NCBI RefSeq assembly: GCF_009498275.1
Contig: NZ_CP045643.1
Coordinates: 7,750,001-7,814,000 of the forward strand
Length of the DNA: 64,000 bases
Source of the DNA: Streptomyces fagopyri
GTDB taxonomy: Bacteria > Actinomycetota > Actinomycetes > Streptomycetales > Streptomycetaceae
Direction: 5' to 3'
The position numbers and the translations under genes are program-made. Positions 48,739-54,333 of this stretch are shown piece after piece. The notes under the pieces were generated by a model, which saw only the letters and a program-made list of their open reading frames with translations, did no database searches and was not told where the DNA came from. How positions within the stretch are numbered: position 1 is the stretch's first letter; every line of letters starts with the position of its first letter.

Positions 48739-49212
48739 TCAGCTCACACGGCCGTACCAGACGCTCTTCGTCCAGATCTTCTGGAGCTTCACGACCTCCC
48801 CGCTCTTCGGGGAGTGCCAGATCTTTCCCTTTCCGGCGTAGATGCCGACGTGGTACACGTTCCGGCCCGAGTGGAAGAACACGAGGTCACCGGCCTTGCG
48901 GTGCGAGGCGGAGATGTGGTGGCTCTTGTTGTACTGCCCCGCGGCCGTACGAGGCAGCTTCTTGCCCGCCTTCTTGTACGAGTACAGCGTGAGTCCGGAG
49001 CAGTCGAACCGGCGCGGCCCGGTGGCACCGTACAGGTACGGGGCGCCCTTCTTGGATGCCGCGATCTGGAGTGCCCTCGTCGCAGGTGTGGCCGCCTCGG
49101 CGTCGGCGGCGACGCCCGGGACCACGAGGCTGCCGCCCACGGCGGCGATGGTCAGAGCCGAGGCCGTACCGGCCCGGGTCAGCAGCGACGGGACACGATT
49201 GAGCGCAGTCAT
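48739..49212 (-). CDS. Secreted NlpC/P60 peptidoglycan hydrolase
   Basis: A 157-residue secreted wall hydrolase. Residues 1-41 are a signal peptide (basic start, hydrophobic ALTIAAVGGSLVVPGVA, cleavage near AEA), followed by a compact NlpC/P60 domain with catalytic C71 in FDCSGL, H121 in YHVGIY and H133. It should cut peptide stems of peptidoglycan. ATG at 49212. The 5' leader carries a c-di-AMP riboswitch, as for rpf and other wall-remodelling genes in Streptomyces. Confidence 0.93.
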   Translation of the reverse strand: MTALNRVPSLLTRAGTASALTIAAVGGSLVVPGVAADAEAATPATRALQIAASKKGAPYLYGATGPRRFDCSGLTLYSYKKAGKKLPRTAAGQYNKSHHISASHRKAGDLVFFHSGRNVYHVGIYAGKGKIWHSPKSGEVVKLQKIWTKSVWYGRVS

Positions 49213-49227
49213 GCGCAACCCTTCGTC

Positions 49228-49372
49228 AACCGCCTGTGAAGGATGACCTGTCGGATTCGGGCTGGCGAAGTAGCCCGGCCGCGTACGCGGCTTCACCCCA
49301 AGGACCGCCCGGTTCTCTCCGGCGGCCCGTCTTGCTGGGTCCTCCACTCCTGCCGATGCACATCTGTCGACC
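49228..49372 (-). ncRNA. ydaO-yuaA type c-di-AMP riboswitch
   Basis: On the minus strand the leader reads GGCAGGAGTGGAGGACCC ... CTTGGGGTGAAGCCGC ... GGGCTACTTCGCCAGCCCGAA, then CCGACAGGTCATCC and AGGCGG, which matches the conserved core of actinobacterial ydaO riboswitches (GGGGTGAA, GCCCGAA.CCGACAG, AGGCG). It ends about 15 bases before the ATG of the NlpC/P60 gene. Such riboswitches turn off wall hydrolase genes when c-di-AMP is high. Confidence 0.82.
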
Positions 49373-49733: not shown

Positions 49734-50039
49734 TCAACTGCCGGATGCGGGGGGCAGGGTGACGCGGGCGGCCCGCCGCTCGCCGTCCAGGACGCGCAGG
49801 GCCTGCGCGAGGGTCGGCGCGTGCACCTCGCTCTCGCCGCGCTGGTGCATCAGGGCCAGGGCGTCACGCAGCGCGGTCGCCTTGCCGACGAGTGCCTGGG
49901 CGGCGCGCAGACCGCGATAGGTGTCTCCCGGGCGGCCCGGGTTGATACGGCCGACCAGGTCGACCACGTCGAGGTAGCGGTCTATCAGTTCGGCCTCGGC
50001 GTGGGTCAGTGCGGGCAGCGGGGGCAGTTCGGGCACCAT
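49734..50039 (-). CDS. Small helical protein co-translated with the ClpP paralogue
   Basis: I do not recognise this 101-residue protein. It appears all-helical (LTHAEAELIDRYLDVVDLVGRINPGR; AAQALVGKATALRDALALMHQRGE; LAQALRVLDGERRAARV), with no signal peptide, cysteines or known catalytic motif. ATG at 50039 is seven bases after the clpP stop and uses the GAGGTGAT overlapping that stop as its ribosome-binding site, so it is made together with the ClpP-like protein; an adaptor or stabiliser is a reasonable hypothesis from context only. Confidence 0.8.
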   Translation of the reverse strand: MVPELPPLPALTHAEAELIDRYLDVVDLVGRINPGRPGDTYRGLRAAQALVGKATALRDALALMHQRGESEVHAPTLAQALRVLDGERRAARVTLPPASGS

Positions 50040-50046
50040 CGGCGGA

Positions 50047-50703
50047 TCACCTCGCGTCGGGTGTGGCGTTCCTCGCACCGGGCGCGGTGCGCGCGTTCTT
50101 GCGGCTCGGGATGATCCCGTCCACCAGCCCGTACGCCAGCGCGGCCCGCGCGTCCAGGATCGTGTCCCGCTCCATGTCGGCGGCGACTTGTTCGGGATTT
50201 TGCCCCGTGTGCCGTACGAGCATGTCCTCCAGCAGCTTCCGAGTGCGCGTCAACTCCGCTGCCTGGAGCGCGAGATCGCTCGCCTGACCCTGTACGGGCC
50301 CGTCGAGTGAGGGCTGACGGATCAGCACCCGGGCGCCCGGCAGGGCGAACCGCTTTCCAGGAGTGCCGCCGGCCAGCAGTACGGCGGCGACCGACACGGC
50401 CTGCCCCAGGCACACGGTCTCCACGTCGCAGGTGACGAATCGCATCGTGTCGTAGATCGCCGTCATCGCGCTGAACGAGCCGCCCGGGGAGTTGACGTAG
50501 AGCGAGATGTCCCGCTCCGGCGCCTGGTGTTCGAGGTACATGAACTGGGCCATCACGTCGTTCGCCGACGTGTCGTCGATCGCTGTCCCGAGGAACACGA
50601 TGCGCTCGTCGAGCAGCTTGGAGTACGGGTCGACGGTCCGGTGTCCCGTGGTCGTGCGCTCGGTGAACTCGGGCAGGACATGGCGGGCGGACGGTTCGTA
50701 CAT
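50047..50703 (-). CDS. ClpP-like protease subunit, catalytic His replaced by Arg
   Basis: A 218-residue ClpP-family protein with a normal fold: [26 protein letters not shown], the serine motif GQAVS (S104) and ERDTILDA (D180). The histidine of the triad, found in the (L/M)HQP motif of active ClpP, is arginine here (LIRQPS, R129, codon CGT at 50317-50319), so the charge relay should be broken. It may therefore be a ClpR-like structural subunit that assembles with active ClpP. It is not beside clpX, clpC or another clpP. ATG at 50703 has GGAGGAGG. The C-terminus ([18 protein letters not shown]) is basic and disordered. Confidence 0.92.
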
Positions 50704-51028
50704 GACTGCGCCTCCTCCGGGCGGCTCCCCTCTGAGCCGCTCTCTGTAAAAAACGTACAGGACGTTCAGATCATGTCGAGGAAATCGGCCCACAGCGAAA
50801 AATCCCACGGAGAGCACGGAGAGCACGGAGAGCACGGAGAGCACGGAGAGCACGGAGAGCACGGAGAAGGGGAGTGGGGCGCTCCGTCTATGTGGGGGCG
50901 ACGCCGAAGTCGCGTCGCCGGGCGTAGGGGCGGGCGCCGTCGGAGGTGGGGTGCCGTCGCTGCGCGCGGTACCGGGGGTCTTCGTCCGTTTCGGGAGAGC
51001 GTCGGGGCTCCGGTCTAAGCTGGTGGGC
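50704..51028. other. 325-bp spacer between the ClpP-like gene and the Phd-type antitoxin
   Basis: Divergent promoter region. Contains a lower-GC segment with GTAAAAAACGTACAGGACG (about 50747-50765), the eight-copy 9-bp repeat (50806-50877), and GC-rich sequence up to the antitoxin. TAAGCT at 51016-51021 could be a -10 for a leaderless antitoxin transcript. No gene is evident. Confidence 0.55.
50806..50877. repeat. 9-bp tandem repeat CACGGAGAG, eight copies
   Basis: Seven perfect copies of CACGGAGAG and an eighth ending in A, about 100 bp upstream of the ClpP-like gene. On the minus strand (sense for that gene) it reads CTCTCCGTG. Perfect repeats of this kind vary in copy number by slippage. 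Confidence 0.95.
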
Positions 51029-51307
51029 ATGGCCTACGAGATTCCGGTGACGCAAGCCAGGGCTGAGCTCGCCGATCTGATCAACCGGGTGGTGTACGGG
51101 GGCGAGCGTGTCGTCGTGACGCGACACGGGAAGCCTCTCGTCGCCCTCGTCTCCGCCGCCGACCTGGAGCGGCTCGAAGAGCTCCGGGAGCTCGCCGACG
51201 AGCAGGTGGTCAGCTCGCTCTCCAGTGTTCGCGAGGTCGCGTCCGCGCCGCGGGAGCGCCAGCGCTTCGGTATCGCCGCGGAGCACCAGGGACCCAACGT
51301 CTCGTAG
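51029..51307 (+). CDS. Phd/YefM-type antitoxin, no adjacent toxin
   Basis: A 92-residue Phd/YefM-family protein: [52 protein letters not shown] is the classic DNA-binding N-terminal domain, followed by a short variable tail that would bind a toxin. No RelE/YoeB or Doc gene is next to it; the downstream 680 bp has no coding capacity that fits. It may be a solitary regulator or a remnant of a toxin-antitoxin pair. Confidence 0.9.
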
Positions 51308-51904: not shown

Positions 51905-51988
51905 GCGCATCCACGCCACCAGGGGTTTTGGTGGCTGCGGCCACCGGACCCCGCACGGTCCGGAGCGAGGACTGTGAGGTGGGACGCC

Positions 51989-52291
51989 GTGCAACTGACC
52001 CCGCACGAGCAAGAGAGGCTGCTGATCCACGTGGCCGCCGACGTGGCCGAGAAGCGCCGGGCCCGCGGACTGAGACTGAACCACCCCGAGGCCGTCGCCC
52101 TCATCACGTCGCACATCCTCGAAGGAGCCAGGGACGGCCGCACCGTGGCGGAACTGATGTCCTCCGGGCGCAAGATCCTCACCCGCGACGACGTCATGGA
52201 GGGCATCCCCGAAATGATCCACGACGTCCAGGTCGAGGCGACCTTCCCGGACGGCACCAAACTCGTCACCGTCCACGACCCGATCGTCTGA
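51989..52291 (+). CDS. ureA: Urease gamma subunit
   Basis: The 100-residue gamma subunit of nickel urease, which hydrolyses urea to ammonia and CO2. The full family sequence is present: [38 protein letters not shown] and the [18 protein letters not shown] end. GTG at 51989 has GAGGTGGGA just upstream and gives the usual N-terminus; a GTG five codons upstream is less likely. First gene of ureABC-F-G-D, with ureB 16 bp downstream. Confidence 0.96.
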
Positions 52292-52307
52292 CGGGGGAGC
52301 GAGCACC

Positions 52308-52619
52308 GTGATTCCCGGAGAGATCCTCTTCGCCGAGGGACCCGTCGCCTTCAACGAGGGCCGCGAGGTCACCCGGATGACCGTCCTCAACGCCGCCGAC
52401 CGACCCGTCCAGGTCGGCTCCCACTACCACTTCGCCGAGGCCAACCCCGGCCTGGAGTTCGACCGCGCCGGCGCGCGCGGGAAACGGCTCAACGTCGCCG
52501 CGGGCACCGCCGTGCGCTTCGAGCCCGGGATCCCCGTCGACGTCGAACTCGTACCGCTCGCCGGTGCCCGTGTCGTGCCCGGCCTGCGCGGCGAGACCGG
52601 AGGTGCCCTCGATGCCTGA
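52308..52619 (+). CDS. ureB: Urease beta subunit
   Basis: The 103-residue beta subunit: starts [52 protein letters not shown], ends [22 protein letters not shown] start with GGGGGAGC upstream. Its last 8 bases overlap the start of ureC. Confidence 0.96.
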
Positions 52620-54333
52620 GCTCTCGCGCGGCGCGTACGCCGACCTGTTCGGCCCCACCACCGGCGACCGTATCCGGCTCGCCGACACCGACCTGCTCGT
52701 CGAGATCGAGGAGGACCGTTCCGGCGGCCCCGGGCGCGCCGGTGACGAGGCCGTGTTCGGCGGCGGCAAGGTCATCCGCGAGTCCATGGGCCAGTCGCGC
52801 GCCACCCGCGCGGAGGGCACGCCGGACACGGTCGTCACGGGTGTGGTGATCATCGACCACTGGGGGATCGTCAAGGCCGACCTGGGCATCCGCGACGGCC
52901 GGATCACCGGTATCGGCAAGGCCGGCAACCCCGACACCATGGACGGTGTCCACCCCGACCTCGTCATCGGTCCGGAGACCGAGATCATCGCGGGCAACGG
53001 ACGGATCGTCACGGCGGGCGCCATCGACGCGCACGTCCACTTGATCTGCCCCCAGATCGCCGACGAGGCACTCGCCTCCGGCATCACGACCCTGGTGGGC
53101 GGCGGCACCGGTCCCGCCGAGGGTTCCAAGGCCACCACCGTCACCCCCGGCCCCTGGCATCTGGCCCGGATGCTGGAGTCGATGGAGGGGTATCCGCTCA
53201 ACCTCGGTCTGCTCGGCAAGGGCAACACCGTCTCGCACGACGCGATGCTGTCGCAGATCCGTGGCGGCGCGCTCGGACTGAAACTGCACGAGGACTGGGG
53301 GTCCACGCCCGCCGTCATCGACGCCGCGCTGACCGTCGCCGACCGCACCGGCATCCAGGTCGCCATCCACACGGACACCCTGAACGAGGCCGGGTTCGTC
53401 GGCGACACGCTCGCAGCGATCGGTGGGCGCGGCATCCACGCGTACCACACCGAGGGTGCCGGCGGCGGGCACGCACCGGACATCATGACGGTGGTCTCCG
53501 AACCGCACGTGCTGCCCAGCTCCACCAACCCGACCCGGCCGTACACCGTCAACACCGCCGAGGAACACCTCGACATGCTGATGGTCTGCCACCACCTCAA
53601 CGCGGCCGTCCCCGAGGACCTGGCCTTCGCCGAGTCGCGCATCCGGCCCTCGACCATCGGAGCCGAGGACATCCTGCACGACCTCGGCGCGATCTCGATC
53701 ATCTCCTCGGACTCCCAGGCGATGGGCCGCGTCGGCGAGGTCATCCTGCGGACCTGGCAGACGGCCCATGTGATGAAGCGGCGGCGCGGGGCCCTGCCGG
53801 GCGACGGACGCGCGGACAACCACCGCGTACGTCGCTATGTCGCCAAATACACGATCAACCCGGCGCTCGCGCAGGGACTCGCCCGCGAGATCGGCTCCGT
53901 CGAGACCGGCAAGCTCGCCGACCTCGTGCTGTGGGAACCGGCGTTCTTCGGCGTCAAGCCCCAACTGGTCATCAAGGGAGGGCAGATCGCGTACGCGCAG
54001 ATGGGCGACGCCAACGCGTCCATCCCCACGCCGCAACCGATCCTGCCCCGGCCGATGTTCGGCGCCATCGGGCGGGCGCCCGCCGCGAACTCCTTCAACT
54101 TCGTGGCGCCGCTCGCGATCGAGGACGGGCTGCCGGAACGGCTCTCGCTGAGCAAGCGGTTCATGGCGATCGACTCCACCCGGGCGGTGACCAAGGCCGA
54201 CATGCGGGAGAACGACGCCCGGCCGCACGTAGGGGTCGACCCCGACAGCTTCGCCGTGCACATCGACGGAGAGCTGGTCGAGGCGGCACCGGCCGCGGAA
54301 CTGCCCATGGCCCAGCGTTACTTCCTCTTCTGA
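52612..54333 (+). CDS. ureC: Urease alpha (catalytic) subunit
   Basis: The 573-residue catalytic subunit. The nickel ligands and active site are intact: [10 protein letters not shown], the carbamylated lysine K224 in [31 protein letters not shown], and the mobile-flap motif [10 protein letters not shown] at 52612 overlaps ureB by 8 bases. Its stop is followed by ureF in a TGATG overlap. Confidence 0.98.

Follow-up and report, generated by a model that had tools for sequence, protein, structure and literature searches.

ClpP homologues without a complete Ser-His-Asp triad are already known from cyanobacteria, plastids and apicoplasts, where these non-catalytic relatives, called ClpR, lie within a mixed core (PMC7966870). 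A 2008 survey that included Streptomyces avermitilis counted 21 inactive homologues among 121 Clp-like proteins, the section concerned not naming the inactive ones (PMC2605481). In Streptomyces ClpP1P2, a Ser mutant of ClpP2 is described as fully active while the corresponding mutant of ClpP1 abolishes activity, and ClpX, ClpC1 and ClpC2 dock on ClpP2 via its pocket (PMC9765437); in Mycobacterium tuberculosis the ATPases are likewise reported to dock on the ClpP2 side (PMC4416901). The same account of the Streptomyces system mentions clpP5 of Streptomyces lividans as a fifth, monocistronic clpP (PMC9765437). In the papers searched we found nothing on ClpP4 or ClpP5 of Streptomyces losing the triad, nor any description of the surroundings of clpP5; the original S. 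lividans clpP papers may hold an earlier remark. Here we analysed a clpP5-type gene of Streptomyces fagopyri, located in a stretch of 64,000 nucleotides (the window; contig NZ_CP045643.1, positions 7,750,001 to 7,814,000), whose product carries arginine in place of the catalytic histidine, and compared it with its orthologues throughout the genus.

The gene was read from the minus-strand frame spanning window positions 50047-51030, as an open reading frame (ORF) at 50050-50703 with an ATG start at 50703 and a TGA stop at 50049-50047. Its product matched the Pfam family CLP_protease (PF00574) with 230.8 bits against a cut-off of 20.2, over profile positions 3-181 of 182. A first-pass annotation, which named no strand, had suggested a ClpR-like, non-proteolytic subunit standing apart from other clp genes, with Ser104 and Asp180 in place and Arg129, encoded by CGT, at the His position; all three residues were read as described, so that the window protein has S104, R129 and D180 where a full triad would have Ser-His-Asp. 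The isolated position of the gene was also borne out. The S. fagopyri chromosome, a single 8.88-Mb contig, holds five ClpP genes, of which four lie elsewhere in two adjacent pairs (C1:6083387-6084729 and C1:8562354-8563506) and one is single (match at C1:7800104-7800646). This arrangement, together with similarity, fits the naming of the pairs as clpP1P2 and clpP3P4 and of the single gene as clpP5.

The arginine is part of a wider pattern of triad loss. Orthologues were found at E <= 1e-78 in 288 of the 392 genomes of the genus, and 287 were counted, one per genome, G371 being left out; G027, G092, G130, G132 and G238 were also left out of the counts despite matches to the window protein at <=1.2e-76. 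The first 207 orthologues were collected with two His-less queries and the last 80 were added against that bias, the intact triad occurring in 90 and 22 of them respectively, which makes 112 of the 287. The His position holds H in 131 proteins, Q in 62, R in 58, E in 15 and S in 10, with D (4), T (2), A (2), G (2) and K (1) as rarer letters; His is thus lost in 156. Asp is missing from 48 proteins and Ser from 56, which have A (39), G (10), P (4) or T (3) instead; of the 156 His-less proteins, 116 still have Ser and 114 still have Asp. Counted per protein, one triad residue is missing in 99 orthologues, two in 67 and all three in 9. A second collection, whose genomes may overlap with the first, gave 28 intact triads in 56 named loci. 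Two sets of 120 nearest proteins, both with close strains repeated, contained 98 S-H-D proteins around the window ClpP5, and 46 S-H-D and 52 A-H-D proteins around ClpP5 of Streptomyces viridochromogenes. An in-frame TGA seen in many relatives proved, in those loci that were translated, to be an ordinary stop ahead of the longer tail of the query.

The idea that Arg129 might be conserved across the orthologous group did not hold, as the 58 proteins with Arg are joined by eight other kinds of replacement, nine in all, and a fixed arginine with a new role is unsupported for the group, R making up 58 and Q 62 of the 156 replacements. The first-pass annotation had also reasoned that His in the orthologues would mark the change as a strain-specific mutation or a sequence error. 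The orthologues turned out to be of both kinds, and a sequence error or single-strain mutation is ruled out by the presence of Arg129 in the closest relatives: in a search of 5.8 billion sequences, all 11 closest proteins (88-100% identical, the window's own included) read S-R-D, whereas the next three, about 86% identical, read S-H-D. Arg129 is therefore common to a small group of related strains and, given the nine different replacements, one among many separate triad losses in ClpP5.

The other Streptomyces ClpPs served as controls, each represented by the 26 or 30 loci most similar to the window's genome. The triad was intact in ClpP1 (30/30), ClpP2 (30/30) and ClpP3 (26/26), while in all 26 of the 26 ClpP4 loci Gly replaced the catalytic His, with Asp also changed in one; one ring of the backup core ClpP3P4 is thus probably silent. 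All 24 ClpP2-type loci from other genera (L092-L115) read S-H-D. Among the loci sampled, only the additional ClpP2-like paralogues, ClpP4 and ClpP5, have lost the triad. ClpP5 resembles the ClpP2 of its own genome in sequence (59.6% identity), in fold and in the S, Y and F of the pocket, which stand at matching spacing, but clpP2 adjoins clpP1 whereas clpP5 is single and accompanied by two other genes described below. ClpP4 is likewise ClpP2-like and lacks the triad His (53% identity in the window's genome); however, its glycine is fixed and its gene paired with clpP3, whereas the changes in ClpP5 are many and varied. SCO7280, considered as a possible ClpP5, was a wrong assignment, the published listing giving it as clpP4.

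Two observations concern the distribution of these paralogues. In G016 a second ClpP2-like match (79% identical to ClpP2, C16:131928-132548) lies between homologues of the genes that accompany clpP5, so that a ClpP2 copy appears to sit inside a clpP5-type module (region C16:131579-133887), and a second ClpP2-like match is also present in G058. Among 46 genomes of G000-G060, the 20 that have clpP3P4 include 16 whose ClpP5 retains His, against 5 of the 26 that lack the pair. A tie between His loss and absence of clpP3P4 could not be established from these raw counts, as with 3-5 independent pairs significance was unreachable, and the window contradicts the trend.

The descent of the group was examined on trees built without the triad columns, using FastTree and a quick IQ-TREE run without mixture model. 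The 287 ClpP5 proteins formed one clade against 30 ClpP2 and 26 ClpP4 sequences (FastTree support 90), and the root of this clade was reconstructed as S-H-D. Parsimony required a minimum of 24-25 changes at the His position, 29-31 at the Ser position and 18-20 at the Asp position, and loss-only counts gave 29, 30 and 18 events; the ClpP2 and ClpP4 rows were included in one set of change counts and excluded in another. Shuffled His labels (100 times) required 86-107 changes. In terms of letters, the His column changed 52 times, ranking 39th of 199 columns, with 33 changes at Ser104, 25 at Asp180 and a column median of 20; the two columns following the His changed 5 and 4 times, and Arg179 not at all. 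The trees and change counts show that the ClpP5 group comes from an ancestor with an intact triad, which on this reconstruction was lost many times and in different ways. We regard the pattern of triad loss in the aligned sequences as near certain.

The remainder of the protein has been kept. All 287 orthologues share 22 invariant columns, and within a clade of 81 genomes without the His the number is 48, though 30 of its members have lost Asp and 13 Ser. Of the 69 columns conserved at >=98% in the intact set, 51 remain at >=95% in the His-less set, the relaxed ones comprising the triad together with L158, E33, N48 and others. Residues next to the triad positions and one residue of the putative pocket are retained, with Q130 in 281, P131 in 275, R179 in 287 and the pocket Y69 in 285 proteins. 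The ratio of nonsynonymous to synonymous substitution rates (dN/dS) was calculated by NG86 twice with different spans and filters, so that absolute values differ. Among disjoint close pairs, the medians were 0.217 for His-less (46 pairs) and 0.171 for intact proteins (40 pairs), with no pair above 0.5; the full-length run with the other filter gave 0.335 and 0.27 for the same two classes, and 0.138 for ClpP1, 0.154 for ClpP2, 0.216 for ClpP3, 0.154 for ClpP4 and 0.187 for the downstream gene orfX. These values show purifying selection acting on the ClpP5 scaffold after triad loss, as estimated from codon comparisons. The predicted structure comprises the whole ClpP fold (mean predicted local distance difference test score, pLDDT, 84.1), chains of M. 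tuberculosis ClpP1P2 being its nearest fold matches and S. hawaiiensis ClpP1P2 chains being among the matches listed; the nearest solved relatives of ClpP5 are actinobacterial ClpP2 proteins.

The clpP5 gene belongs to a conserved module (Table 1). An orfX homologue lies behind it on the same strand in 285 of 287 loci. In 240 of these, 10-13 nt separate its estimated start from the first base of the stop codon of clpP5, a close spacing that seems hard to square with the description of clpP5 as monocistronic. The gene was present in 56 of 56 named ClpP5-type loci and absent from the 24 ClpP2-type loci of other genera, and an orfX profile search of the order found it in 225 of 293 genomes and 3 of 9 genera, the genera named belonging to Streptomycetaceae. 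Searches for Pfam, NCBIfam and PDB sequence matches to OrfX found none, and the protein is predicted to form three helices (mean pLDDT 71.1).

On the other side, a solitary gene for a Phd/YefM-type antitoxin (PF02604, 55.5 bits against a cut-off of 29.8, with a match to TIGR01552 as well) lies head to head with clpP5 in 266 of 287 loci, with a median of 86 bp between the starts. No toxin family was found among the window ORFs behind it, and no conserved toxin-like ORF family in the 265 loci examined, the largest family there (24 loci) resembling urease gamma, as in the window. Between the two starts lies a near-fixed dyad element, GTACGTCCTGTACATTTTTTACAG, the seed of which occurs in 273 of 287 upstream regions; at <=3 mismatches it was found once in each of three whole genomes and twice in a fourth, with no hits for the reversed control. 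The centres of its two consensus cores, GTAC and TGTACA, are separated by 9 bp, short of the 12 bp between the palindromic TGTACA cores described for YefM operators (PMC7730913, PMC3303803, PMC4803016). The module therefore shares with YefM-YoeB operons a Phd/YefM-type protein and a TGTACA core in the promoter region, the S. lividans operon being likewise described at a divergent promoter (PMC3303803), but differs from them in core spacing, in having no conserved toxin gene and in that the other side of its promoter region presumably drives clpP5-orfX. We propose that the Phd/YefM-type protein binds the dyad, through which it would govern expression of clpP5 and orfX. In the window itself the starts are 325 bp apart, the spacer exceeding 200 bp in 41 of 266 loci; this distance, the 9-bp repeat and the mismatches in both cores suggest that regulation in the window may differ.

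Table 1. Features of the clpP5 locus in the window, with the ClpP4 gene of the same genome (positions are those of the window unless a contig is given).
Feature	Position	Strand	Remarks
NlpC/P60-family protein	48742-49347	minus	beyond orfX, same strand
orfX	49734..50039	minus	101 aa + stop; start 7 nt past clpP5 stop codon
clpP5-type gene	50047..50703	minus	218 aa + stop; ORF; Pfam match
Asp180 codon	50164..50166	minus	MERD; triad Asp present
Arg129 codon	50317..50319	minus	CGT, in LIRQPS; triad His position
Ser104 codon	50392..50394	minus	GQAVS; triad Ser present
clpP5 ribosome-binding site	50711..50718	minus	GGAGGAGG; by eye; GGAGG before ATG
Window copy of dyad GTACGTCCTGTACATTTTTTACAG	50744..50767	minus	2 mismatches, one per core (GAAC, TGTACG)
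Tandem repeat, 9-bp unit CACGGAGAG	50806..50867		6.9 copies; between antitoxin-type gene and clpP5
Solitary Phd/YefM-type antitoxin gene	51029..51307	plus	92 aa + stop; divergent from clpP5
Urease gamma, beta and alpha genes	51974-54330	plus	adjoin antitoxin-type gene
ClpP4 gene of S. fagopyri	G000:C1:8562339-8562938	minus	sampled loci L293-L318

The loss of the triad with the rest of ClpP5 conserved suggests a structural or docking role for the protein and not cutting. The explanation that we favour, to which we would give an even chance of being right, is that ClpP5 forms a ring without catalysis of its own, on which the ATPases dock while a ClpP1-type ring does the cutting. ClpP5 would form a ClpP2-like heptamer presenting an ATPase-docking face, where, by position, S67, Y69 and F89 of the window protein match the pocket residues that had been tested, and this heptamer would stack onto a catalytic ring of ClpP1 or ClpP3. 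Arg129 would deprive Ser104 of its general base, and in a mixed ring pair the active site of ClpP5 itself would be dispensable. We infer a ClpP1-ClpP5 complex by analogy with the ClpP1P2 system introduced above. A docking role would tolerate triad loss, and would thus explain why the loss is seen in ClpP4 and ClpP5 and not in the ClpP1-like subunits. With its general base apparently absent, the window ClpP5 is likely a non-proteolytic subunit, as the first-pass annotation had proposed, and an effect on the composition of the ClpP ring is plausible for a ClpP2-type subunit. The likeness to ClpR survives as an analogy: R129 makes the protein a ClpP paralogue without a complete, working triad, in keeping with the published definition (PMC7966870). 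ClpP5 differs from ClpR in that it falls within a ClpP2-type clade of the actinobacteria whose ancestor had an intact triad, as many of the members still have. ClpPADEP of Streptomyces hawaiiensis, another accessory ClpP, is reported to alter core composition, but is most ClpP1-like, is tied to acyldepsipeptide biosynthesis and forms a functional complex with ClpP2 (PMC12607617).

A broader and more speculative scheme, which we think unlikely to hold as a whole, would have two pseudo-protease ClpP rings in Streptomyces, each an ATPase-docking ring freed from catalysis, by a single fixed change in ClpP4 and by many separate ones in ClpP5. ClpP5 would then serve as an exchangeable docking ring, able to redirect a ring of ClpP1 type, and would be made together with OrfX and switched by the solitary Phd/YefM-type repressor, itself a protease target. 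With ClgR-clpP1P2 and PopR-clpP3P4, this would make three circuits that sense protease.

Several observations weigh against these proposals. Of the three pocket positions, the two other than Y69 vary more, with S67 in 213 and F or Y at position 89 in 235 of 287 proteins, and by the dN/dS estimates ClpP5 is less constrained than ClpP2 or ClpP4, and slightly less again after His loss. Listeria ClpP1, which has Asn for Asp, is described as aligning into an active triad with ClpP2 (PMC9765437), a precedent by which an altered triad need not mean inactivity. With regard to a Clp-labile regulator, a Streptomyces YefM is reported to be stable in Escherichia coli only without Lon (PMC6521030). Finally, of 12 orfX loci from genomes scored as lacking clpP5, 11 contain a broken copy of the gene or none.

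This last point bears directly on the strongest competing explanation, according to which clpP5 is a redundant duplicate in slow decay, having lost catalysis first, with orfX and the regulator retained for some separate reason. The clpP5-less set comprised 80 of 96 genomes picked by eye for a weak best E-value (the 96 did not include G238, G362, G375 and G391, which were also weak), and clpP5 is in fact present as a divergent copy of almost full length in at least one of the 80, G217. An orfX match at E <= 1e-5 was obtained in 26 of the 80, and in 14 it is accompanied by an antitoxin-type homologue at E <= 1e-28. Across the 12 orfX loci, clpP5 had left no trace in 2, was split over two frames in 3, was in pieces or internally deleted in 6 and was nearly full-length but divergent in 1. 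A broken or absent clpP5 beside a kept orfX indicates that orfX and the regulator can outlive clpP5, which supports decay, as do the faster evolution of ClpP5 compared with ClpP2 and the slightly faster evolution of the His-less copies. On the other hand, the aligned frame is open in 287 of 287 orthologues, the invariant columns persist even in the His-less clade, and dN/dS is far below 1 throughout. We consider decay possible but doubtful.

An inhibitory role appears improbable to us. ClpP5 would in this case act as a negative regulator, its subunits or rings joining ClpP1 and/or ClpP2 into inactive or slowed complexes, an outcome that the loss of any one of the three triad residues would suit and that has a parallel in ClpPADEP, reported to disturb ClpP1P2 formation and to inhibit ClpP1 (PMC12607617); the 112 intact copies would, however, be left unexplained. 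That ClpP5 still cuts, through Ser104 and Asp180 aided by another base or a partner subunit, is very hard to credit in view of nine chemically different His replacements and of the loss of two or three triad residues in 76 of 287 proteins, even though Ser and Asp are mostly kept in His-less proteins, the odd triad of Listeria ClpP1 is reported to work in a mixed core (PMC9765437) and four of six Streptomyces cattleya ClpPs, which may include the ClpP5 orthologue, are reported to shorten RelB half-life on co-expression with ClpX in E. coli (PMC4989188).

ClpP5 as a docking ring thus remains the reading that we carry forward, and the findings have consequences for the family as well as for the genus. 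Within a single bacterial genus, each of the three triad positions has been lost repeatedly in nature while other orthologues remain intact, by which the role of a non-cutting ClpP ring becomes directly testable. By implication, counts of clpP genes would overstate the number of cutting Clp rings in Streptomyces, in which ClpP is an antibiotic target. Moreover, the layout in which clpP5 is conserved with the regulator, the dyad and orfX offers a concrete way into the function of ClpP5, a protein on which the literature searched holds almost nothing.
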